Of a stretch of DNA of 64,000 bases, positions 5,544 to 53,673 are shown piece after piece. The notes under the pieces were generated by a model. It made no database searches. It had not been told where the DNA came from and was given only the letters and a program-made list of their open reading frames with translations. This stretch comes from Crossiella sp. CA-258035 (GTDB lineage Bacteria; Actinomycetota; Actinomycetes; Mycobacteriales; Pseudonocardiaceae), in NCBI RefSeq assembly GCF_030064675.1, contig NZ_CP116413.1, forward strand, positions 2,016,001 to 2,080,000, given 5' to 3'. The number at the start of each line of letters is the position of its first letter. The first letter of the stretch is position 1. A program made the position numbers and the translations under genes.

Positions 5544-5712
5544 GCCAACACCCCGTCCATAACCGCCAACACCCCGTCCCACTCCGGCCAACACAGCGTC
5601 CACAACGGCCAACACGCCGCCCATAACGGCCAACACGCCCGGGAGGACCTCCTCCCGGGCGTGTTGGCCGTTTTCGTACGGGGTGTTGGCTGGAGTGGGA
5701 CAGGGTGTTGGC
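5544..5712. repeat. Helically phased GCCAACAC array 1
   Basis: Eight copies of the octamer GCCAACAC in the gap between two convergent genes. Forward copies begin at 5544, 5565, 5587, 5608 and 5629. Reverse copies (GTGTTGGC) begin at 5661, 5683 and 5705. Spacing is 21-22 bases throughout, two turns of B-DNA. The bases between copies vary, with GTACG recurring in one. A second array with the same unit lies at 35211-35444. It is not CRISPR: the conserved unit and the spacers are far too short. Confidence 0.85.
5625..5672. terminator. Bidirectional terminator hairpin with 23-bp perfect stem
   Basis: Arms 5625-5647 and 5650-5672 are exact reverse complements with only two bases between them. In RNA the top few pairs would open to form the loop. 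The right arm runs into TTTT, and the whole sits between convergent genes. The stem incorporates one forward and one reverse unit of the GCCAACAC array. Confidence 0.75.
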
Positions 5713-5721
5713 TGTTGTGGG

Positions 5722-16675: not shown

Positions 16676-18100
16676 ATGACGGAATTCATGACACAGGCCG
16701 ACGAGACGGACATCCTCTCGACCGGCGAGATGGAACTGGCCGACCGTGCCGCGCTCCGCAGGGTCGCCGGGCTGTCCACCGAACTCGCGGACATCAGCGA
16801 GGTCGAGTACCGGCAGCTCCGGCTCGAGCGGGTAGTGCTGGTCGGCGTGTGGACCGAGGGCGACGCCGAGGAGGCGGAAGCCTCGCTCGCGGAGCTGGCC
16901 CGGCTGGCCGAGACCGCGGGCGCGGAGGTCCTGGAAGGACTCATCCAGCGCCGCCAGAAACCGGACCCGGCCACCTACATCGGCTCGGGCAAGGTCCTGG
17001 AGCTGCGCGAGTCGGTCATCGCGACCGGCGCCGACACGGTCATCTGCGACGGTGAGCTCTCGCCCGGCCAGCTGCGTCAGCTGGAGGAGAAGCTCAAGGT
17101 CAAGGTGGTCGACCGGACCGCGCTGATCCTGGACATCTTCGCCCAGCACGCCAGCTCGCGGGCCGGCAAGGTGCAGGTCGAGCTGGCCCAGTTGCAGTAC
17201 CTGCTGCCCAGGCTGCGCGGCTGGGGTGAGTCGCTGTCCAGGCAGGCCGGCGGCCGCGCCGGTGGCAACGCCGGTGTGGGTCTGCGTGGTCCCGGTGAGA
17301 CCAAGCTGGAGACCGACCGCAGGCGGATCACCAAGCGGATGGCCAAGCTGCGCAAGGAGATCCGTGCGATGGGCACGGTCAGGGAGACCAAACGCGGCAT
17401 GCGGGTGGCCAACCTGGTGCCGAACGTGGCCATCGCCGGGTACACCAACGCGGGCAAGTCCAGCCTGCTCAACGCGCTCACCAACGCCGGTGTGCTGGTC
17501 GAGGACGCGCTGTTCGCGACTCTGGACCCGACCACCCGGCGCGCGGTGACCCCGGACGGCCGCGGCTTCACCCTGACCGACACGGTCGGCTTCGTGCGGC
17601 ACCTGCCGCACCAGCTGGTCGAGTCCTTCCGCTCCACCCTGGAGGAGGTCGCCGACGCGGACCTCATCCTGCACGTGGTGGACGGTTCGGACCCGCTGCC
17701 GGAACGCCAGGTCTCCGCGGTGCGCGAGGTCTTCACCGAGATCATCGCCAACCGGGAAACGCCGATGCCGCCGGAGATCCTGGTGGTGAACAAGCTGGAC
17801 CAGGCCGACGAGCTGACCGCGACCCGGCTGCGCCACCTGTTCCCGGACGCGGTGTTCGTCTCCGCGCACACCGGAGCGGGCATCGACTCCCTGCGCGCCC
17901 TGCTCGCCGACCGCATCCCGCGGCCGGAGGTATTGGTGGAGCTGCTCATCCCGTACAGCAGGGGCGAGCTGGTCTCCCGGGTGCACACCGAGGGCGAGGT
18001 GCTGACCGAGAAGCACACCGAGGACGGCACCGAGCTGCGCGCCAGGGTCAAGCCGGAACTGGCCGGACAACTGGGCGAGTTCGCGGACCACCGCGCGTGA
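16676..18100 (+). CDS. hflX: Ribosome-associated GTPase HflX
   Basis: GTPase that binds the 50S subunit and splits stalled ribosomes; 474 aa. N-terminal HflX domain with YIGSGKVLELRE and the glycine-rich AGGNAGVGLRGPGETKLETD linker, then the G domain: G1 GYTNAGKSS, G3 DTVGFVRHLP and G4 NKLD. Start ATG 16676 chosen; the frame is open upstream, but that would run into the terminator hairpin. Its stop overlaps the next gene by GTGA. It keeps the mycobacterial dapF-hflX order, with two genes inserted between. Confidence 0.95.
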   Translation: MTEFMTQADETDILSTGEMELADRAALRRVAGLSTELADISEVEYRQLRLERVVLVGVWTEGDAEEAEASLAELARLAETAGAEVLEGLIQRRQKPDPATYIGSGKVLELRESVIATGADTVICDGELSPGQLRQLEEKLKVKVVDRTALILDIFAQHASSRAGKVQVELAQLQYLLPRLRGWGESLSRQAGGRAGGNAGVGLRGPGETKLETDRRRITKRMAKLRKEIRAMGTVRETKRGMRVANLVPNVAIAGYTNAGKSSLLNALTNAGVLVEDALFATLDPTTRRAVTPDGRGFTLTDTVGFVRHLPHQLVESFRSTLEEVADADLILHVVDGSDPLPERQVSAVREVFTEIIANRETPMPPEILVVNKLDQADELTATRLRHLFPDAVFVSAHTGAGIDSLRALLADRIPRPEVLVELLIPYSRGELVSRVHTEGEVLTEKHTEDGTELRARVKPELAGQLGEFADHRA

Positions 18101-19155
18101 GAAGGCTGCTGACCCGCACAACAGCGCTGCTGGCAACCACAGTGGCGCTGTTGTGCACGTCAGCGGCCCCCGCACTGGCCGAGGCCGACCCCCCGGCCCC
18201 GGTCGAGAAGTGCCGCTACACCGACAAACGCCTGAAGGAGCTCAGCGGCCTGGCCAGCGACGGCAAACGCTGGTACGCCATGGCCGACGGCGGTTCACGC
18301 CTCCAGGTCCTGGTCCTCACCCCGGACTGCAAGGTCGAGCGCACCATCACCAACGCCACCGACCCCTTCGACGTCGAAGACCTGGCCAGAGCCGCCGACG
18401 GCACCCTGTGGCTGGCCGACACCGGCGACAACGCCAAAAAACGCGACAACATCGCCCTGCACGCCCTGTCCCCCAACGGCAAGGCCACCCTCTACCGCCT
18501 GACCTACCCCGACGGCCCCCACGACGCCGAGGCCCTGCTGCTGGACCGCAAAGGCACCCCGTACATCGTCACCAAAGAGCCCTTCGCGGCGGCGGGCATC
18601 TACCGCCCCGGAAAGGCACTGACCGCTCCCGGCCCCACCGCGCTGGAAAAGGTCGGCACCATCCGCATCCCCACCACCAGCACCCCCGGCGGCCCGGTAG
18701 GCGGCATCGGCTCAGTCCTGGTAACCGGCGGCGCGGTGAACCAAGACGGCACCATGGCCGCCTTGCGCACCTACACCGACGCCCTCCTGTTCCCAGCCCC
18801 GGACGGCGACCTGGCCGAGGCACTGAAACGCGACCCGGTGCGAATCCCGTTGCCGAACGAGTCCCAGGGCGAAGCCATCGCATTCGAACCAGACGGCACC
18901 CTGCTCTCCGGCTCCGAGGAAATGGACCCCATCCGAGCGGTCCCCGGCGCGGTGAAGTTCGCCAGCGGCAACGCCCCAGCCCCAGCCCAGAAGTCGGAGA
19001 CGAAGGCCCCGAACGGCACCGGGAACCAGGCAGCGGGCCAACCCACAGAAGAGGGCGGCACCGGCGGCACATCCTGGGGCGCGATCCTGCTGGCCGGAGT
19101 TGGCGCGGCCGCAGTGGTTTTCCTAGTCAGCCGCACGCGAAAAGCAAAGCGCTAG
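18097..19155 (+). CDS. Secreted beta-propeller-like protein with C-terminal membrane anchor
   Basis: 352 aa, unknown function. Sec signal peptide (residues 1-28, ending APALAEA). Then a propeller-like region of short repeats (LSGLASDGKRWYAMADGG, LWLADTGDN, HDAEALLLD, GEAIAFEPDGTLL) resembling secreted phytase/esterase-like propellers. Then a Gly/Pro/Thr-rich linker, one hydrophobic helix and a basic RKAKR tail, so the protein is likely anchored with the propeller outside. It overlaps the hflX stop by 4 bases (GTGA), so translation is coupled. No catalytic residues are claimed. Confidence 0.72.
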   Translation: MRRLLTRTTALLATTVALLCTSAAPALAEADPPAPVEKCRYTDKRLKELSGLASDGKRWYAMADGGSRLQVLVLTPDCKVERTITNATDPFDVEDLARAADGTLWLADTGDNAKKRDNIALHALSPNGKATLYRLTYPDGPHDAEALLLDRKGTPYIVTKEPFAAAGIYRPGKALTAPGPTALEKVGTIRIPTTSTPGGPVGGIGSVLVTGGAVNQDGTMAALRTYTDALLFPAPDGDLAEALKRDPVRIPLPNESQGEAIAFEPDGTLLSGSEEMDPIRAVPGAVKFASGNAPAPAQKSETKAPNGTGNQAAGQPTEEGGTGGTSWGAILLAGVGAAAVVFLVSRTRKAKR

Positions 19156-19209
19156 CGAACAACCCAGCGACGGGCTCGCGACGGGGTAGCTTTTCAAACA
19201 TCCACCGAA

Positions 19210-19371
19210 GTCTTGAGGTTCCCCATGCCCGTCAACCTGGAGACATCACACCGCATCCCAGCCCACGGACGCACACAGCAACCGCCGCCAAGGCCACGCA
19301 ACGCGAGGGCGGCCGTGGGCTGGGATGTGGTTTGATTTCGGAGGGTTGACGGGCATGGGGAACCTCAAGAC
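19210..19371. repeat. Module A of copy 1: 162-base long hairpin
   Basis: Outer arms 19210-19237 and 19344-19371 are perfect 28-bp complements. An inner perfect 15-bp stem pairs 19254-19268 with 19313-19327. The 44-base apex holds a segment conserved in copy 2 (reverse strand: GCGTGGCCTTGGCGGCGG). Confidence 0.88.
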
Positions 19372-19418
19372 CCGCCTGCGTCTTGGCCTTTGATTTTCCC
19401 CCCCCATGCTTTGATTCC

Positions 19419-19506
19419 TGCCCGTCCGGCGAGGACGCTCTTGACTTTGATCTTCGCCTGAAAACCTAAGATCAAAAGCGAAAAGAATGTCCTCGCCGGA
19501 CGGGCA
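19419..19506. repeat. Module B of copy 1: 18-bp-arm hairpin
   Basis: Perfect arms 19419-19436 (TGCCCGTCCGGCGAGGAC) and 19489-19506 enclose a 52-base AT-richer loop. Confidence 0.85.
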
Positions 19507-19601
19507 GACCACCGGAGGGGTGTGACAGATCAAAAGCCGGAGATGAGCAGGTTGCGGGGCGGGGTCTGGGCTGCCGGGGCCGATTCCAGCGTGCTCGCGA
19601 C

Positions 19602-19753
19602 CCTCTCGTCTTCTCCGCACGACCTTCCGACAGCAAACCACACCTCCCCACCCGGCCCCCGTCACATTGGGCGGCTAGGGCGGCGACAGGTTGCAGGGGC
19701 CGGGCGGGGAGGCGCGGTCAGCAGTCTCCAGGCCGTACGGAGAAGACGAGAGG
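19602..19753. repeat. Module C of copy 1: 152-base hairpin
   Basis: Outer arms 19602-19621 and 19734-19753 pair at 19 of 20 positions. An inner stem pairs 19643-19659 with 19696-19712 (16 of 17). Against copy 2 only three of 152 positions differ, by my count. Confidence 0.85.
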
Positions 19754-19824
19754 CCCGCTTTGTGGGTTTTCACCCCCGGGCTGCGCCCGAACCCCGGCGC
19801 ATCGGTGCTCCTAACATGGCGCAA

Positions 19825-20532
19825 ATGACGACGCGCATGGAGACCGTCACCGTCTCCGACGGCACCTTCGACCTCACCGTCTGGCTTCCCGAAGCCCCCG
19901 CTCCGCGCCCCGGCATCCTGCTCGTCCAGGAGATCTTCGGCGTCGGCCCCTACGTCAAGGCGGTGGCCGAGGATCTGGCCGCCCTCGGTTACGTGGTCGC
20001 CGCTCCCGACCTCTTCTGGCGGCAGCACCGCAACTGGGCCGCCGGTCACGACGACGCCGGTCTGCAAGCCTCCATGGCGCTCGTCGGCCAGTACGACTTC
20101 CCCCGTGGCGTCGTCGACTGCCAGGCTTCCCTCGACGTCCTGCGCGGACTGCCCGAGGTCGCCGGTCAGCCCGTCGGCGCGCTGGGCTTCTGCTTCGGGG
20201 GGTCGATGACCTTCTTCCTTGGCGCGCAGGGAAACCCGGATGCCGTGGTCTCCTTCTACGGCTCCGTTGTGCCGGACAATGCGGCCCTGCTCGACAAGAT
20301 CAGCGTGCCCACGCTGATGCACTTCGGCGGCGACGACCCCTACATCGCCCGCGCGGACATCGCCAAGGTGGAAGCCGCGGCCGAGGGCAAGCCGCATGTT
20401 GAGCTGCACGTCCAGGAGGACGCTGGGCACGCCTTCCACAACCGCATGGCCCCGGCTTTCCACCACCCGGAGGCGGCGGCCAGGGCCTGGCGGTTGACGG
20501 AGGAGTTCCTGGGGCGGGTGTTGCCGGTCTAG
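19825..20532 (+). CDS. Dienelactone hydrolase-family alpha/beta hydrolase
   Basis: 235 aa cytoplasmic hydrolase. The nucleophile elbow GFCFGG carries Cys instead of Ser, as in dienelactone hydrolases. The acid Asp is in GGDDPY, His in AGHAFHN, and QEIFGV carries the conserved Glu that orients Cys. ATG 19825 is preferred because TAACAT (19812-19817) stands 7 bases before it; ATG 19816 would add three residues. The frame stays open far upstream through the palindromic element, but that stretch is repeat DNA, so a longer protein is not supported. The stop overlaps the convergent ceramidase gene by 4 bases. Confidence 0.87.
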   Translation: MTTRMETVTVSDGTFDLTVWLPEAPAPRPGILLVQEIFGVGPYVKAVAEDLAALGYVVAAPDLFWRQHRNWAAGHDDAGLQASMALVGQYDFPRGVVDCQASLDVLRGLPEVAGQPVGALGFCFGGSMTFFLGAQGNPDAVVSFYGSVVPDNAALLDKISVPTLMHFGGDDPYIARADIAKVEAAAEGKPHVELHVQEDAGHAFHNRMAPAFHHPEAAARAWRLTEEFLGRVLPV

Positions 20533-35210: not shown

Positions 35211-35444
35211 GCCAACACGCCGTGCCGCCCAGCGACACGGCGTGTTCGCGTTCCCGAGTGTTGGCCGATCTCGTACGCCGTGTTGGCCGTTGTGGCACCC
35301 GTGTTGGCCGATCTCGTACCCGGTGTTGGCCGAGGCCGCGCCAATCCGGCCAAGACCTTGTACGAGAACGGCCAACACCCCGTACGACTTCGGCCAACAC
35401 TCGGTGCGGGATCGGCCAACACGGGGTACCGGTTCGGCCAACAC
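35211..35444. repeat. Helically phased GCCAACAC array 2
   Basis: Non-coding gap between ftsZ and pgeF. Forward octamers at 35211, 35349 (degenerate, GCCAAGAC), 35371, 35393, 35415 and 35437. Reverse octamers at 35258, 35280, 35301 and 35323. Within each block the spacing is 21-22 bases. The extended unit is GGCCAACAC plus about 13 bases, often containing GTAC and ending in TC. The reverse block (35258-35330) can pair with the forward block (35349-35444) as one long imperfect hairpin. Same unit as the array at 5544. Confidence 0.85.
35214..35246 (+). terminator. ftsZ terminator hairpin
   Basis: AACACGCCGTG (35214-35224) pairs perfectly with 35236-35246 around an 11-base loop, 14 bases after the ftsZ stop. 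The left arm uses part of the first array octamer. Confidence 0.6.
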
Positions 35445-35466
35445 GGGGGTGGGGGGTGGGGTGGGG
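35445..35466 (+). other. G-quadruplex motif upstream of pgeF
   Basis: Four G-runs of 5, 6, 4 and 4 bases (35445-35449, 35451-35456, 35458-35461 and 35463-35466) separated by single T loops, on the coding strand 17 bases before the pgeF start. Single-base loops give the most stable parallel G4 type. The run sits where a -35 would be expected. Confidence 0.7.
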
Positions 35467-48917: not shown

Positions 48918-49082
48918 TAACTTCGGGGCCAAGGTCATGAGTACCAGCGCACAGCCCCGGCTTGCTGGTCGGCAACCCTCCTACCGCGGTGGGGTGCTCC
49001 GGGTGAGGACCTGGTCCGTCGCGAGGTGCGGCGGGCAAGCGCGGACCTCCTGGCAGGTCCGATCAGGACCCCGGAGGGTTGT
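48918..49082 (+). promoter_or_regulatory. SAM-IV riboswitch with promoter and RBS-masking platform
   Basis: TAACTT (48918-48923) is a suitable -10. The aptamer runs about 48933-49043: GGTCATGAGTACCAGC, then the SAM core AGCCCCGGCTTGCTGG, CGGCAACCCTCC, CCGCGGTGGGGTGC, CCGGGTGAGGACC closing P1, and further on GGCAAGCGC. These blocks fit the actinobacterial SAM-IV class. CCTCC (49046-49050) can pair with the ribosome binding site GGAGG (49073-49077), so translation would be shut off when SAM is bound. Confidence 0.88.
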
Positions 49083-50435
49083 ATGTCGCTCGCTGTCATC
49101 CCCGCGCAGGCCACCGCCACCACCGCTGCCGTGCCCGCCGTCGTCGGTGCGCACACCGCGGTGCCGCTGGTCACCGGGGAGCGGGTGACCTACGCCAACC
49201 TCGACCACGCGGCCAGCGCGCCGTGCCTGGCCGCGGTGCGCGACGCGGTGGACGAGCTGCTGCCCTACTACGCCAGCGTGCACCGCGGCGCCGGGTTCGC
49301 CTCGCAGGTGTGCACCAAGGTCTACGAGCAGGCCAGGGACGTGGTGCGGCGGTTCGTCGGGGCGCACGCCAGCGACGTGGTGGTCTTCACCCGCAACAGC
49401 ACCGACGCGCTGAACCTGCTGGCCCGCAGCGTGCCCAGGGGCACCAGCGTGGTCACCTTCGACACCGACCACCACGCCGCGCTGCTGCCGTGGCGCGGCC
49501 CCAGGGTCACCCGGATCGCCACCCCGGACACCCCGCAGGGCGCCATCGGCGCGCTGGCCGAGGCGCTGCGGAACACGCTGGAGGGCGCGCGGCTGGTGGT
49601 GCTGACCGGGGCGTCCAACGTGACCGGTGAGCTGTGGCCGGTGCGCGAGCTGGCCGCGGTGGCCCGCCGCTTCGGCGCGCGGATCGTGCTGGACGCCGCG
49701 CAGCTGGCCCCGCACCGCCCGGTGGACATCCAGCAGCTCGACGTGGACTACGTGGTGCTCTCCGCGCACAAGCTCTACGCCCCCTACGGCAGCGGCGCGC
49801 TGGTCGGCCGGGCGGACTGGCTGCACCAGGCCGAGCCGTACCTGGTCGGCGGCGGCGCCACCAAGCACGTGGTGGACTGGGGCGACCACCTGGGCGTGGG
49901 CTGGGCGCCCGCGCCGGAGCGGCACGAGGCCGGATCGCCGAACGTGGTCGGTGTGCACGCCTTCGCCAGCGCCTGCCAGGCCATCACCCAGCACGGCTGG
50001 GACGCGGTCATCGCGCACGAGGCCGAGCTGTTCGCCCGGCTGCGCGCCGGGCTCAAGGCCATTCCCGGTGTGCGGGAGCTGTCGATCTTCGGCGCGGGGC
50101 AGGACCGGGTCGGTGTGGTGAGCTTCACGGTGGACGGTCAGGACCCGGGGCTGCTGGCCGCCGCGCTGTCCGCCGAGTACGGGATCGGGGTCCGCGACGG
50201 CGCGTTCTGCGCGCACATCGCCACCCGGCGGCTGCTCGGCCAGGCCGGGTCGGACAGCGACCGCGCGCTGCGGGTCAGCCTGGGTCTGGGCACGAACGCC
50301 GAGCACGTGGACCGGGTGCTGCTGGCGCTGCGCGAGCTGGTCGAGCACGGGCCGGGCTGGAAGTACGAGATCGTGGACGGCCGGTGGGCCCCGGTGAACG
50401 ACCCCAGGCCGCTGCCGCCGTTCATCAACGCCTGA
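49083..50435 (+). CDS. Class V aminotransferase / cysteine desulfurase-like enzyme
   Basis: 450 aa PLP enzyme, fold type I. N-terminal NLDHAASAP, NSTDALNLLA, the Asp-Ala-Ala-Gln motif VLDAAQLAPH, and the PLP lysine in VLSAHKLYAPYGSGAL. A Cys is present in GAFCAHI, close to where desulfurases and selenocysteine lyases place theirs. The SAM-IV riboswitch ahead of it argues for a sulfur or methionine role rather than general transamination. ATG 49083 behind GGAGGG. The exact substrate (Cys, Sec or an isopenicillin-epimerase-like substrate) is open. Confidence 0.85.
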   Translation: MSLAVIPAQATATTAAVPAVVGAHTAVPLVTGERVTYANLDHAASAPCLAAVRDAVDELLPYYASVHRGAGFASQVCTKVYEQARDVVRRFVGAHASDVVVFTRNSTDALNLLARSVPRGTSVVTFDTDHHAALLPWRGPRVTRIATPDTPQGAIGALAEALRNTLEGARLVVLTGASNVTGELWPVRELAAVARRFGARIVLDAAQLAPHRPVDIQQLDVDYVVLSAHKLYAPYGSGALVGRADWLHQAEPYLVGGGATKHVVDWGDHLGVGWAPAPERHEAGSPNVVGVHAFASACQAITQHGWDAVIAHEAELFARLRAGLKAIPGVRELSIFGAGQDRVGVVSFTVDGQDPGLLAAALSAEYGIGVRDGAFCAHIATRRLLGQAGSDSDRALRVSLGLGTNAEHVDRVLLALRELVEHGPGWKYEIVDGRWAPVNDPRPLPPFINA

Positions 50436-50472: not shown

Positions 50473-51036
50473 GTGAGCACCGACGACAAGCCGCCCCGCC
50501 GCCTGGTGCCGTTCGCCCTGGTGGCGCTGGCGGCCTTCGCGGCGGACCTGATCACCAAGGACCTCGCGGTCGCCGCGCTCGACGGGCAGCCGCCGGTGCG
50601 GGTGGCCGGTGGCGCGCTGTACCTGGTGCTGCTGCACAACCCCGGCGCGGCGTTCTCGCTGTTCCCCGGCCAGACCTGGCTGCTGACGCTGATCACCACG
50701 CTGGTCGTGCTGGCCATCCTGATCTTCGCGCCCCGGCTGCGCTCCACCGGCTGGGCCGTGGGCATCGGCCTGGTGCTGGGCGGCGCGCTGGGCAACCTGG
50801 CCGACCGGCTGACCCGCCCGCCCGGCTTCGCCGAGGGACATGTGGTGGACTTCCTGTCACTGTTCGCCCCCGACGGCAGCGTGTGGCCGGTGTTCAACAT
50901 CGCCGACGCGGCCATCGTCAGCGGCGGCGTGCTCCTGGTGCTGCTGGCCCTCTTCGGCGTCGACTACGACGGCAAGCGGCCGGGGCGCCGAGCAGACCAG
51001 ACGAAGGCCGAGGCCACGGTGGAGGAAAACGCGTGA
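50473..51036 (+). CDS. lspA: Lipoprotein signal peptidase LspA
   Basis: Membrane aspartyl protease that removes prolipoprotein signal peptides; 187 aa with four transmembrane segments. Catalytic Asp126 (VVDFLSLF) and Asp145 (FNIADAAI), with GNLADR between. The C-terminal tail is Arg/Lys-rich. GTG 50473; GACAAT six bases before it suggests a leaderless start. The stop overlaps rluD by GTGA. It serves the lipoproteins seen at 2.2 and 53.8 kb. Confidence 0.95.
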
Positions 51037-51965
51037 GTGACCAGAGGACCCTGCCGGTGCCGGACGGCCTGGACGGCATGCGAGTGGACGCGGGCCTGTC
51101 CAAACTGCTGGGCCTGTCCCGCACGGTCGCGGCCGGCCTGGCCGAGACCGGCGGAGTCCTGCTCGACGGCCAGCCCGCGGGCAAGTCCGACCGCCTGGTA
51201 GCCGGTTCCTGGCTGGAGATCACCCTCCCCGAACCGGAACACCCCGTCCCGGTGCTCGCCGCCCCGGTGGACGGCATGGTCGTGCTGTACGAGGACGACG
51301 ACATCGTGGTCATCGACAAACCGGTAGGCGTCGCGGTGCACCCCAGCCCCGGCTGGACCGGCCCCACGGTCGTCGCGGGCCTGGCCGCAGCGGGCATCCA
51401 GATCGCCACCTCCGGCGCGGCCGAGCGCCAGGGCGTGGTGCACCGGCTGGACGTGGGCACCACCGGCGTGATGGTGGTGGCCAAGAGCGAACACGCGTAC
51501 TCGGTGCTGAAGCGGGCGTTCAAGGAACGGACCGTGGAGAAGCGCTACCACGCGCTGGTGCAAGGACACCCGGATCCCAGCCGGGGCACGATCGACGCCC
51601 CGATCGACCGGCACCCACGCCAGGACTACAAGTTCGCGGTGGTCGCCAGCGGCAAGCCGAGCGTCACGCACTACGAGGTGATGGAGGCGTTCCGGGCGGC
51701 ATCCCTGGTCGATGTGCGGCTGGAGACCGGCCGGACCCACCAGATCCGGGTGCACTTCTCGGCATTGCGACACCCGTGCGTGGGGGATTTGACCTATGGC
51801 GCGGATCCGGTACTGGCGAAGAAGTTGAACTTGACGCGGCAGTGGTTGCAGGCGCGGTCATTGGGATTCCACCACCCGGCGCATGAGGGATGGGTGGAGT
51901 TCACCAGCGAGTACCCGGCGGACTTGCAGACGGCGTTGGACTCACTGCGCGCAGACAGCTGGTGA
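51033..51965 (+). CDS. rluD: RluA/RluD-family 23S rRNA pseudouridine synthase
   Basis: Isomerises uridines in large-subunit rRNA; 310 aa. N-terminal S4 RNA-binding domain (about residues 14-65), then the catalytic domain with [15 protein letters not shown] (Asp140 nucleophile) and the C-terminal [10 protein letters not shown]. The RluD name is by similarity and genomic pairing with lspA. GTG start coupled to lspA. The composite palindromic element begins 14 bases after its stop. Confidence 0.93.
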
Positions 51966-52006
51966 GCGAAAAGCCCTTAGCCGGGGGTGAAAACCCACAA
52001 AGCGGG

Positions 52007-52158
52007 CCTCTCGTCTTCTCCGTACGGCCTGGAGACTGCTGACCGCGCCTCCCCGCCCGGCCCCTGCAACCTGCCGCCGCCCTAGCCTCCCAACGTGACG
52101 GGGGCCGGGTGGGGAGGTGTGGTTTGCTGTCGGAAGGTCGTGCGGAGAAGACGAGAGG
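52007..52158. repeat. Module C of copy 2
   Basis: Outer arms 52007-52026 and 52139-52158 (19 of 20 pairs). The mismatch is the same as in copy 1. Confidence 0.85.
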
Positions 52159-52251
52159 GTCGCGAGCACGCTGGTTCTTGAGTCGGCAACCCAAACCCCG
52201 CCCCGCAACCTGCTCGACCGGCTTCTGACTTGTCCCACCCCTCCGGTGGTC

Positions 52252-52338
52252 TGCCCGTCCGGCGAGGACATTCTTTTGCTTTTGATCTTAGGTTTTCAAG
52301 CAAGAGCGACAGTCAAGAGCGTCCTCGCCGGACGGGCA
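52252..52338. repeat. Module B of copy 2
   Basis: Perfect 18-bp arms 52252-52269 and 52321-52338, identical to copy 1. The loop is 51 bases and partly diverged, keeping TTTTGATCTTAGGTTTTCA-like sequence. Confidence 0.83.
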
Positions 52339-52397
52339 GAGATCAAAGCATGGGGGGGGAAAATCAAAGTCAAAGTCAAGGGCAGAGACGCAGGCAG

Positions 52398-52559
52398 GTC
52401 TTGAGGTTCCCCATGCCCGTCAACCTTCCGAAATCAAACCACATCCCAGCGAGCAGCCGCCGTCACGTGGCGTGGCCTTGGCGGCGGTTGCTGTGAGCGT
52501 CTGCTCGCTGGGATGTGGTGTGATGTCTCCAGGTTGACGGGCATGGGGAACCTCAAGAC
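52398..52559. repeat. Module A of copy 2 with compensated inner stem
   Basis: Outer perfect 28-bp arms 52398-52425 and 52532-52559. Inner perfect 15-bp stem 52442-52456 with 52501-52515. Compared with copy 1 the inner stem reads CGAGCAG instead of CCCACGG, with matching changes on the other arm. The apex is 44 bases in both copies. Confidence 0.88.
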
Positions 52560-52608
52560 TTCGGACAAGTTTTCGAAAAGCCAGCCCGGCTGCTGGTCCG
52601 GTGTCGCT

Positions 52609-53673
52609 CTAGTCCTCGATCGCCCAGGTGAGGCTGTGCGTGTCGTCGCCGGGATGTGGGCTCCACCGGATGTGGGTCAGCCGCAAGGACTCCGGCAGCA
52701 CGTAAACCGTGTGCCCGCCCGCCGTCTCGCCCGGTGCGACGCCGATCCGGTGCGGCGGCCGGGACGACAACGCCACCGGTGCCTTGGAGATCTGTTGTCC
52801 GTCCTCGGTGACCAGCACCAGGTACAGGTCCGGCAGGGACGCGAAGGGTACTGGGCCCCGGTTGTGGAGTTCGGTGTGCACGACCACCGAGCGCTCGCCC
52901 TCTTGCAGTCGGTAACCGGCGGCGGTGAACAGGAAGTCGGCCGGGTCGACCACCTCGACCAGTTGGATGACCAGTCGTTCGCCTTCCTGGCCTTCCGTTT
53001 CCAGTGCGCCGCCGACTACGCCGGTGCGGCTGCCCGCCGCTGGGGCGGTGGTCACCGTGGGCTGGTCGCCGCGTGCCCAGGTCGCCGACTGGGGTGGGCC
53101 CCAGGTGCTCATGGGGTCCGCGCCGGTTGCCGGGAACGGGGGCTGGGCGGGGAAGCCGCCGCTGGGCGGGTTGTAGACCGGGGGTGGGGGTGGGTAGGCG
53201 CCGGTGGGGACGCCGGGCTGGTGTGCGGGGTACGGGCCGCTCGGGGTGCCGTAGGGACCGCTGGGTGTCCCATGTGGACCGCCGGGTGTGCCGTACGGGC
53301 CGCTTGGGGTGCCGTAGGGGCCGCTGGGGGTGCCGTGCGCCGGGTAGACGCCGCTGGGGGTGCCGTGGGCGGGGCCGGGGCCGTAGACGGGGGGAGCGTA
53401 GGACGGGGGTGGCGCGGCGGGCGGGGGTGGGGAAGCGGCAGGGGGGAATCCGGCCCAGGCTCCGGCTGCGGCCAGTGCGCCGCGCAGGCCGTTGGGGTCG
53501 AACTCGACGCCGACGATCAGGGGCAGGCCGCTGGCCGAGAGGGCCACCAGTCTGGAGGCGGCCTCCCTGGGGTCCACGCCTGCCCTGGCGGCGATCTCGT
53601 GCACGGGAGCCGCGCGCCCCGACTCGGCCAGCAGGGCGAGCAGGCGCATGTCCACGGGATCCGGCGACACCAC
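52609..53673 (-). CDS. N-terminal winged-helix / Pro-Gly repeat / beta-sandwich protein
   Basis: 354 aa, family not recognised as a whole. Residues about 5-55 look like a winged helix (MRLLALLAESGRAAPVHEIAARAGVDPREAASRLVALSASG split over helices and wing). Residues 75-190 are a Pro/Gly/Tyr low-complexity stretch with tandem GTPSGPY heptads (at least five, encoded near 53230-53360). Residues about 220-350 form a DUF4352-like beta domain (HTELHNRGPVPFASLPDLYLVLV). No signal peptide. GTG 53673. Function unknown; possibly a regulatory or scaffold protein. Confidence 0.7.
   Translation of the reverse strand: MVSPDPVDMRLLALLAESGRAAPVHEIAARAGVDPREAASRLVALSASGLPLIVGVEFDPNGLRGALAAAGAWAGFPPAASPPPPAAPPPSYAPPVYGPGPAHGTPSGVYPAHGTPSGPYGTPSGPYGTPGGPHGTPSGPYGTPSGPYPAHQPGVPTGAYPPPPPVYNPPSGGFPAQPPFPATGADPMSTWGPPQSATWARGDQPTVTTAPAAGSRTGVVGGALETEGQEGERLVIQLVEVVDPADFLFTAAGYRLQEGERSVVVHTELHNRGPVPFASLPDLYLVLVTEDGQQISKAPVALSSRPPHRIGVAPGETAGGHTVYVLPESLRLTHIRWSPHPGDDTHSLTWAIED

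Follow-up and report, generated by a model that had tools for sequence, protein, structure and literature searches.

The BOX elements of Streptococcus pneumoniae are described as modular intergenic repeats of 67-637 bp that have a predicted RNA secondary structure, are over-represented between convergent genes and show slow turnover of their sites (PMC3049150). According to the same account, convergent siting of BOX and of other repeats is also the outcome of tolerated parasitic insertion. SPRITE, another pneumococcal repeat treated there, combines a hairpin resembling a Rho-independent terminator (18-bp duplex) with a U-rich stretch, and is likewise over-represented between convergent genes (PMC3049150). 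REP sequences and BIMEs, as characterized in PMC3733652, are extragenic palindromic units that occur singly or as inverted dimers, with proposed roles in termination and mRNA stability. The units given there measure 20-40 bp and have stems of 5-13 bp; those of the CGTC type are without a dedicated transposase, those of the GTAG type are tied to RAYT, and the five phyla listed for the CGTC repeats do not include Actinobacteria (PMC3733652).

We examined a window of 64,000 nucleotides (bases 2,016,001-2,080,000) from the genome of Crossiella sp. CA-258035 (G000; 9,170,171 bases in a single contig), in which the original prediction placed two copies of a composite palindromic element with three hairpins, A, B and C. 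Both copies are present, each with three inverted repeats, and the flanking called genes lie close on both sides, such that each copy fills an intergenic gap (Table 1). Copy 1 occupies that between called genes 18097-19155 and 19837-20532, and copy 2 that between the convergent genes named in the table. Although ORFs run across copy 1, our codon-usage gene caller placed no gene inside either copy. In copy 1, the arms of A are 63 nt long around a 36-nt loop and are 87% complementary, those of B are 25 nt (92%), and those of C are again 63 nt around 36 nt (79%); the four 63-nt pairs formed by A and C of both copies are the longest inverted repeats in the window at spacings of up to 300. The copies have 90% identity over 588 alignment columns. 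Aligned copies of the element have conserved outer and inner stems and a variable B loop, with CTTTGA-like repeats close by. Within G000, the inner stem of hairpin A occurs as two alternative complementary sequences. We are confident that the element is a dimeric, strand-constrained, 3′-end repeat, and our best reading is a self-spreading 3′-end RNA-hairpin repeat that resembles a giant BIME or BOX element.

Table 1. Parts of the two element copies, with positions in the window.
Feature	Position	Strand	Basis
Copy 1, whole dimeric element A-B-C	19187..19781	+	alignment, inverted-repeat search
Copy 1, left unit outer end (..GCTTTTC..), 31 nt past the stop codon of gene 18097-19155	19187..19209	+	
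Copy 1, left unit hairpin A: outer stem, purine internal loop, inner stem	19210..19371	+	
Copy 1, left spacer with CTTTGA and C-run	19372..19417	+	
Copy 1, left tail TGCCCGTCCGGCGAGGAC, then T-rich stretch	19419..19436	+	
Copy 1, mini hairpin GTCC-GGCGA-GGAC inside left tail	19424-19436	+	
Copy 1, 'hairpin B', the junction of two tails	19418..19507	.	
Copy 1, right tail, same 18-mer as left tail	19489..19506	-	
Copy 1, right spacer; by eye, rich in C on the strand of its unit	19508..19596	-	
Copy 1, hairpin C of the right unit (reversed homolog of A)	19597..19758	-	
Copy 1, right unit outer end	19759..19781	-	
Copy 2, complete dimer, flanked by convergent genes 51033-51965 (+) and 52609-53673 (-)	51979..52583	-	
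Copy 2, hairpin A, the other inner-stem version	52398..52559	-	
Copy 2, tail junction B	52250..52340	.	
Copy 2, hairpin C	52002..52163	+	

The element is a tail-to-tail dimer of a ~270-nt unit, which comprises a two-tier hairpin of ~160 nt, a spacer, and the conserved tail TGCCCGTCCGGCGAGGAC with a T-rich run. Hairpin C, when reverse-complemented, is homologous to A: the two share CCTGGA on the 5′ side, with either CGGAAGG or CGGAGGG on the 3′ side. Half copies end within the B loop (L020 and L023 in G000, L113-L118 in the sister species, G002), and the covariance-model matches included 21 further G002 A units without a partner, 20 of which were retrieved. The 18-base tail core was present in all 20, and at least one (L316) retains a remnant of C. 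Because half copies end in the B loop and unpartnered units bear a tail, the element resolves into two ~270-nt units joined tail to tail, with B as their junction. Thus, the three hairpins of the earlier description stand, but its reading of them as three modules does not, and B is not an independent module.

Tails in G002 are mostly GGCC-GGCGA-GGCC on the right and GTCC-GGCGA-GGAC on the left; each still folds on itself while B has mismatches, which makes the mini hairpin, rather than B, the likelier conserved structure. The GTCC/GGAC pairing is replaced by GGCC/GGCC in G002 and G001 and, once, by GCCC/GGGC in G003. The mini hairpin has four pairs only, with the T-rich stretch next to it, and a scan of 19100-19850 for the terminator consensus returned three sites against 0.8 by chance, one of the three being outside the element. 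By eye, the outer ends of the element have only a few letters in common (GGGGTKG). At L025 (G000:6749615 region), a single hairpin consists of C-outer and A-outer ends, with the same form at the same site in the Crossiella genome G103 (L194/L197), and looks as if the middle of a dimer was lost through recombination between palindromes. Separately, short direct repeats (like GGGGTTCGCGACCAAGGACCAGCGGTC) accumulate ahead of the A outer end in the left flank of L012.

Genome-wide, the 595-base element was located at no fewer than 25 places in G000, alongside one 69-base fragment at 2,954,041 (best 40 of 80 candidates scored), a count drawn from 88 matches that were mostly the two arms of one hairpin. 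It is thus not confined to the two sites in the window, which rules out a simple two-copy duplication. Thirteen places start with A-B (12 full A-B-C; C is altered in L013), eight start with an alternative left hairpin, D (CGGTCTGGGTGGTTCTG...), among which L024 is a D copy without C, and four are partial or recombinant (L018, L020, L023, L025). The order A-B-C, originally taken as fixed, therefore holds only in part, D standing in the place of A at 8 of the 25. By BLAST, G002 has at least 34 full and six half copies (best 40 scored), and G001 has about nine. The covariance model that had been proposed as a check was built and gave at least 149 matches in G002 (best 150 scored) and 80 in G000, both strands counted. 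The family is real and structured.

Among 41 genomes searched, seven had any match, with full or half elements in G000, G001 and G002, and short pieces only in G003 and three other genera (G016, G017, G019). The exact 18-base tail core was present in 28 of 100 genomes of the family (a draw that did not contain G001), numbering 35-68 in G000, G103, G002 and G081 and at most seven in the others, while its letters read backwards occurred in none of the 100. A longer tail pattern, with two mismatches allowed, was found in G000 only among 198 genomes of the phylum, a sample with no other member of the family. A tail-pattern scan of named genomes, which may omit records of the window's own genome, returned 69 stretches, all of them from four Amycolatopsis genomes, four of Saccharothrix and Crossiella sp. 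SN42, whose unit matches the C unit of the window. Copies also account for some assembly breaks: one G103 contig starts inside a copy, and in A. tucumanensis no fewer than three contigs (L248, L269, L298) break off about 30 bases or less from a tail.

Beyond Crossiella, the units are recognizable by tail and shape. In G081, from another genus, 41 exact tail cores were present and 40 loci were retrieved. A long two-tier hairpin of wholly different sequence stands ahead of the tail in all but one (L156) of the first 20, and a second, reversed hairpin follows in 25 of the 40, its tail being GCGCCGTGAGGCGC in the examples inspected. Folding of 13 units from the named genomes gave a long hairpin in 12, the exception being L245. 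Architecture is alike in three genera and the stems are unrelated. The covariance model of the Crossiella unit had no match in G003, G081, G024 or G021, and the link to other genera hence rests on the shared tail and architecture. Additionally, G081 loci L149-L168 and L210-L229 contain a second kind of unit, with the tail GCGCC-GTGA-GGCGC (GNRA-type loop), facing the GTCC/GGAC unit. In G003 (L203, L207), one orthologous site has hairpins of other sequence (CTTTGGCTGCGCAGCAGCC ...), and there is a single diverged tail, with GCCC/GGGC.

The stems have retained pairing through change. In 36 Crossiella hairpins, assessed against a hand-written structure of 52 pairs, 95.1% of cells were paired and 37 of the 52 pairs were altered on both sides, with a covariation score of 0.592 versus 0.215 for shuffled and 0.071-0.112 for slid partners; this covariation is largely the split between A and C together with shared ancestry, and hence reflects fewer independent events. 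A strand test on oriented units counted how many columns showed G·T and how many A·C when the sense strand was read from outer end to tail. Amycolatopsis and Saccharothrix units took their orientation from the tail, and 24 of 95 and one of six, respectively, fell outside the search pattern and were not counted. Since pairs were defined by Watson-Crick pairing only, neither strand was favored. The ratio of G·T to A·C columns was 6:1 (G000/G103) and 7:0 (G002) for Crossiella A units, 15:0 (G000/G103, all 30 units) and 8:0 (G002) for C units, 1:0 for D, and 9:0 for Saccharothrix, while Amycolatopsis, at 4:1, had too few columns to tell. The total was 50:2 (p = 6e-13), or 43:2 after hand-merging columns shared by two Crossiella species. 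In the columns as read, both A-to-G and C-to-T differences contribute, and deamination alone is thus no explanation of the bias. Predicted fold energy was better on the sense strand for all C units (21 of 21 and 28 of 28) and for Saccharothrix (5 of 5), was about equal on both strands for Crossiella A and D units, and was better on the sense strand in only 7 of 70 Amycolatopsis units. As G·T but not A·C is accepted, and on one strand only, a folded single strand is under selection in Crossiella and Saccharothrix, most likely RNA as the simplest form, with single-stranded DNA as a less likely alternative.

Gene orientation at the sites of the element, determined with a home-made codon-usage gene caller, was convergent at 41 of 65 copies (G000 and G002), co-directional at 22 and divergent at two, compared with 9, 36 and 8, respectively, among the 53 neighbor pairs in the window, its own two copies included (Fisher, p = 4e-7 for the convergent excess and 0.04 for the divergent deficit). 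The 15 gaps of over 100 bases in the window were convergent in two cases, co-directional in eight and divergent in five. An orientation run with a GC-position rule (34 of 65 convergent, five divergent) mis-called the gene left of copy 1 and was replaced by the codon-usage caller. Of 40 G081 loci, 25 were convergent, 10 co-directional, two divergent and three incomplete, and the corresponding numbers for the 69 loci of named genomes were 24, 19, 1 and 25. At nine of ten convergent G000 sites with a right unit, the end of that unit, which is approximate, lies 2-22 nt from the facing stop codon.

For single units, a convergent site gives a same-strand upstream gene in either orientation, and only co-directional sites are therefore informative. 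We consequently discarded as orientation evidence the same-strand upstream gene at 24 of 25 unpartnered units and, for the same flaw, a plus-strand left gene at 46 of 60 in the named set, where co-directional sites were 8 ++ versus 11 --. At co-directional sites, unpartnered units numbered seven for the sense orientation (L316, with its C remnant, among them) and two against. Some sites already have a terminator-like hairpin in the interval from stop codon to unit: 3 of 19 in G000 and, in G002, 12 of 35 with a dimer or half copy and 4 of 18 others; those in G002 are mostly of the GGCCAACAC family. Palindrome arrays of GGCCAACAC ... GTGTTGGCC at 5557-5720 and 35253-35449 of the window represent a second dispersed intergenic family, and such arrays adjoin several units in G002. 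CTAGCGA, considered as a stop-codon motif, was not enriched within the window.

A G103 copy of the element lies beside at least one flank at 22 of the 25 G000 sites, with both flanks on one locus at 16 of these, and flank identity between the two genomes is 93.7-99.3%. At L006, L018 and L022, no element copy was present beside the flanks among the G103 loci compared; about 2.5 kb of other DNA (G103:C64:11100-13750) occupies the L006 site. G000 and G002 have at least 5 of the 25 sites in common among the matches listed, one of them also in G001. Yet of 26 orthologous G000-G103 hairpins (only those fitting the search pattern), 21 have a better match elsewhere in G103, four match the ortholog best and one is tied, and some paralogous hairpins of G000 are identical. 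At the L019/L055 site, the flanking protein is 99% identical, yet G000 has D and G002 has A as its left hairpin. Units are exchanged between sites within a genome and undergo concerted evolution. Six sites were read among 17 in G003, two of which were cleanly empty, with stop codons 5 nt apart at the L012 site and 19 nt apart at the L003 site; the copy 2 site holds a different palindromic array (GGCCAACAC), and three more hold other sequence.

Measured against described repeats, the element is like BOX in being modular and intergenic, with predicted RNA structure, convergent sites and slow turnover. It is set apart from BOX by the description of the latter, which has boxA-boxB-boxC modules where here one unit forms a tail-to-tail dimer, and by host, the BOX hosts given being streptococci (PMC3049150) and ours Pseudonocardiaceae. 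With REP/BIME it shares inverted dimers, extragenic space and many copies, but it lacks defining features of REPs. Its unit has ~270 nt and about 50 base pairs (52 in the hairpin model), versus the 20-40 bp and 5-13 bp stems given for REPs (PMC3733652), and it has no unpaired GTAG or CGTC end tag; CGTC occurs in the tail, but its GTC sits in the paired GTCC/GGAC. Unlike for GTAG REPs, no RAYT gene was found in G000, which speaks against a RAYT-mobilized REP. SPRITE, as described (PMC3049150), resembles it in hairpin, following T/U-rich stretch and convergent siting, but is much smaller and simpler, with its 18-bp duplex. Searched over the whole window, no Rfam 15 family reached its gathering score on the element, the best sub-threshold matches on copy 1 being miRNA hairpin models, and a riboswitch or other catalogued RNA is ruled out at Rfam thresholds. 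A SAM-IV riboswitch (113.6 bits) lies at 48933-49047, just 5′ of the called start of the gene at 49083. We found no description of the element in the open-licence literature. The suggestion that it is undescribed and fits no known type is thus borne out in its first half, as a family of repeats that is apparently undescribed, and not in its second, as its general character is that of REP/BIME, BOX and SPRITE, the known broad kind of small interspersed repeats: numerous, intergenic and palindromic, and chiefly located between convergent genes.

Judging from position, fold and T-rich tail, the element may have a role at the ends of messages. The constrained strand reads from outer end to tail, which at a convergent site is the one read in transcription from the gene next to that end. 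The unit would be transcribed as the 3′ end of that neighbor's message. There, it may act as a barrier and 3′-end structure, protecting the end, causing RNA polymerase to pause or stop near the tail, and restricting read-through from one convergent gene into the other. Spread may be via a putative helper acting in trans, followed by homogenization through gene conversion. We consider it evenly balanced whether the element is, in full, a dispersed 3′-end repeat whose unit is a strand-specific folded RNA with such a 3′-end role and spread.

Siting and spread fit a parasite equally well, as has been argued for BOX (PMC3049150). Also counting against the preferred explanation are the terminator-like hairpins that some sites already have, the small size of the four-pair mini hairpin, the few co-directional sites of unpartnered units (seven for, two against), the fold energies of Amycolatopsis and of Crossiella A and D units, and the orthologous genes in G003 that lack the element. 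A selfish, non-autonomous small interspersed repeat, surviving where harmless, chiefly behind convergent genes, and affecting transcripts only incidentally, is a possible though less likely explanation. It would accommodate the patchy distribution and large copy-number differences between species, the empty G003 sites, the only five sites that G000 and G002 share among the matches listed, the terminator-like hairpins already at some sites, and siting like that of BOX, RUP and IS elements (PMC3049150). Pure tolerance, however, leaves the strand-specific, kept pairing unexplained, unless the folded strand is itself mobilized, and the 22 of 25 G000 sites with a G103 copy argue for infrequent jumping.

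Mobilization of the strand as DNA, with a one-strand hairpin recognized by a HUH-type enzyme as in REPs and IS200/IS605, is unlikely. Such recognition would also give the G·T/A·C bias, and the inverted dimers, as in REPs, and the conserved tail adjoining variable hairpins agree with it. However, the Y1 transposase domain PF01797 was absent from G000, G103, G003 and G081, the first, second and last of which carry many copies, and among these four, G001 and G002, it was matched only in G001 and G002; no copy was noticed to carry an enzyme inside. Moreover, no target duplication was seen by eye at the two empty G003 sites, where exact element ends are uncertain.

Conservation across genera is far higher in the tail than in the stems, as would be expected if the units were multi-copy small RNAs or protein-binding RNAs from mRNA 3′ ends with the tail as seed or binding site; against this very unlikely reading stands the lack of an Rfam match. 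We give little credence to a bacterial counterpart of SINEs, in which a trans-acting enzyme would copy a non-coding RNA unit, carried at the 3′ end of host messages, to new gene ends by way of the unit's folded RNA, such that the fold would be selected, stems swapped by gene conversion, and the enzyme-read tail fixed across genera. For all its 41 exact tails, G081 gave no PF00078 match, and a retroelement with a standard reverse transcriptase is therefore unsupported. G000 has one reverse-transcriptase gene, in a 477-aa frame at G000:C1:8357170-8357727, with a G103 match of similar score. BIMEs have roles in chromosome folding or supercoil control, and long palindromes acting likewise as double-stranded or cruciform DNA would suit convergent sites, where positive supercoils meet, but the G·T versus A·C asymmetry is unexpected for cruciforms, which need both strands, and makes this hardly credible.

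The element adds an apparently undescribed repeat family, whose units exceed REPs several times in size, to the Pseudonocardiaceae, which are mined for antibiotics. Because it combines a conserved tail, changing but mostly paired stems, a one-strand pairing bias, and reshuffling between fixed sites, it is a good test case for the old question of whether bacterial extragenic palindromes are parasites or host parts for ending and protecting messages.
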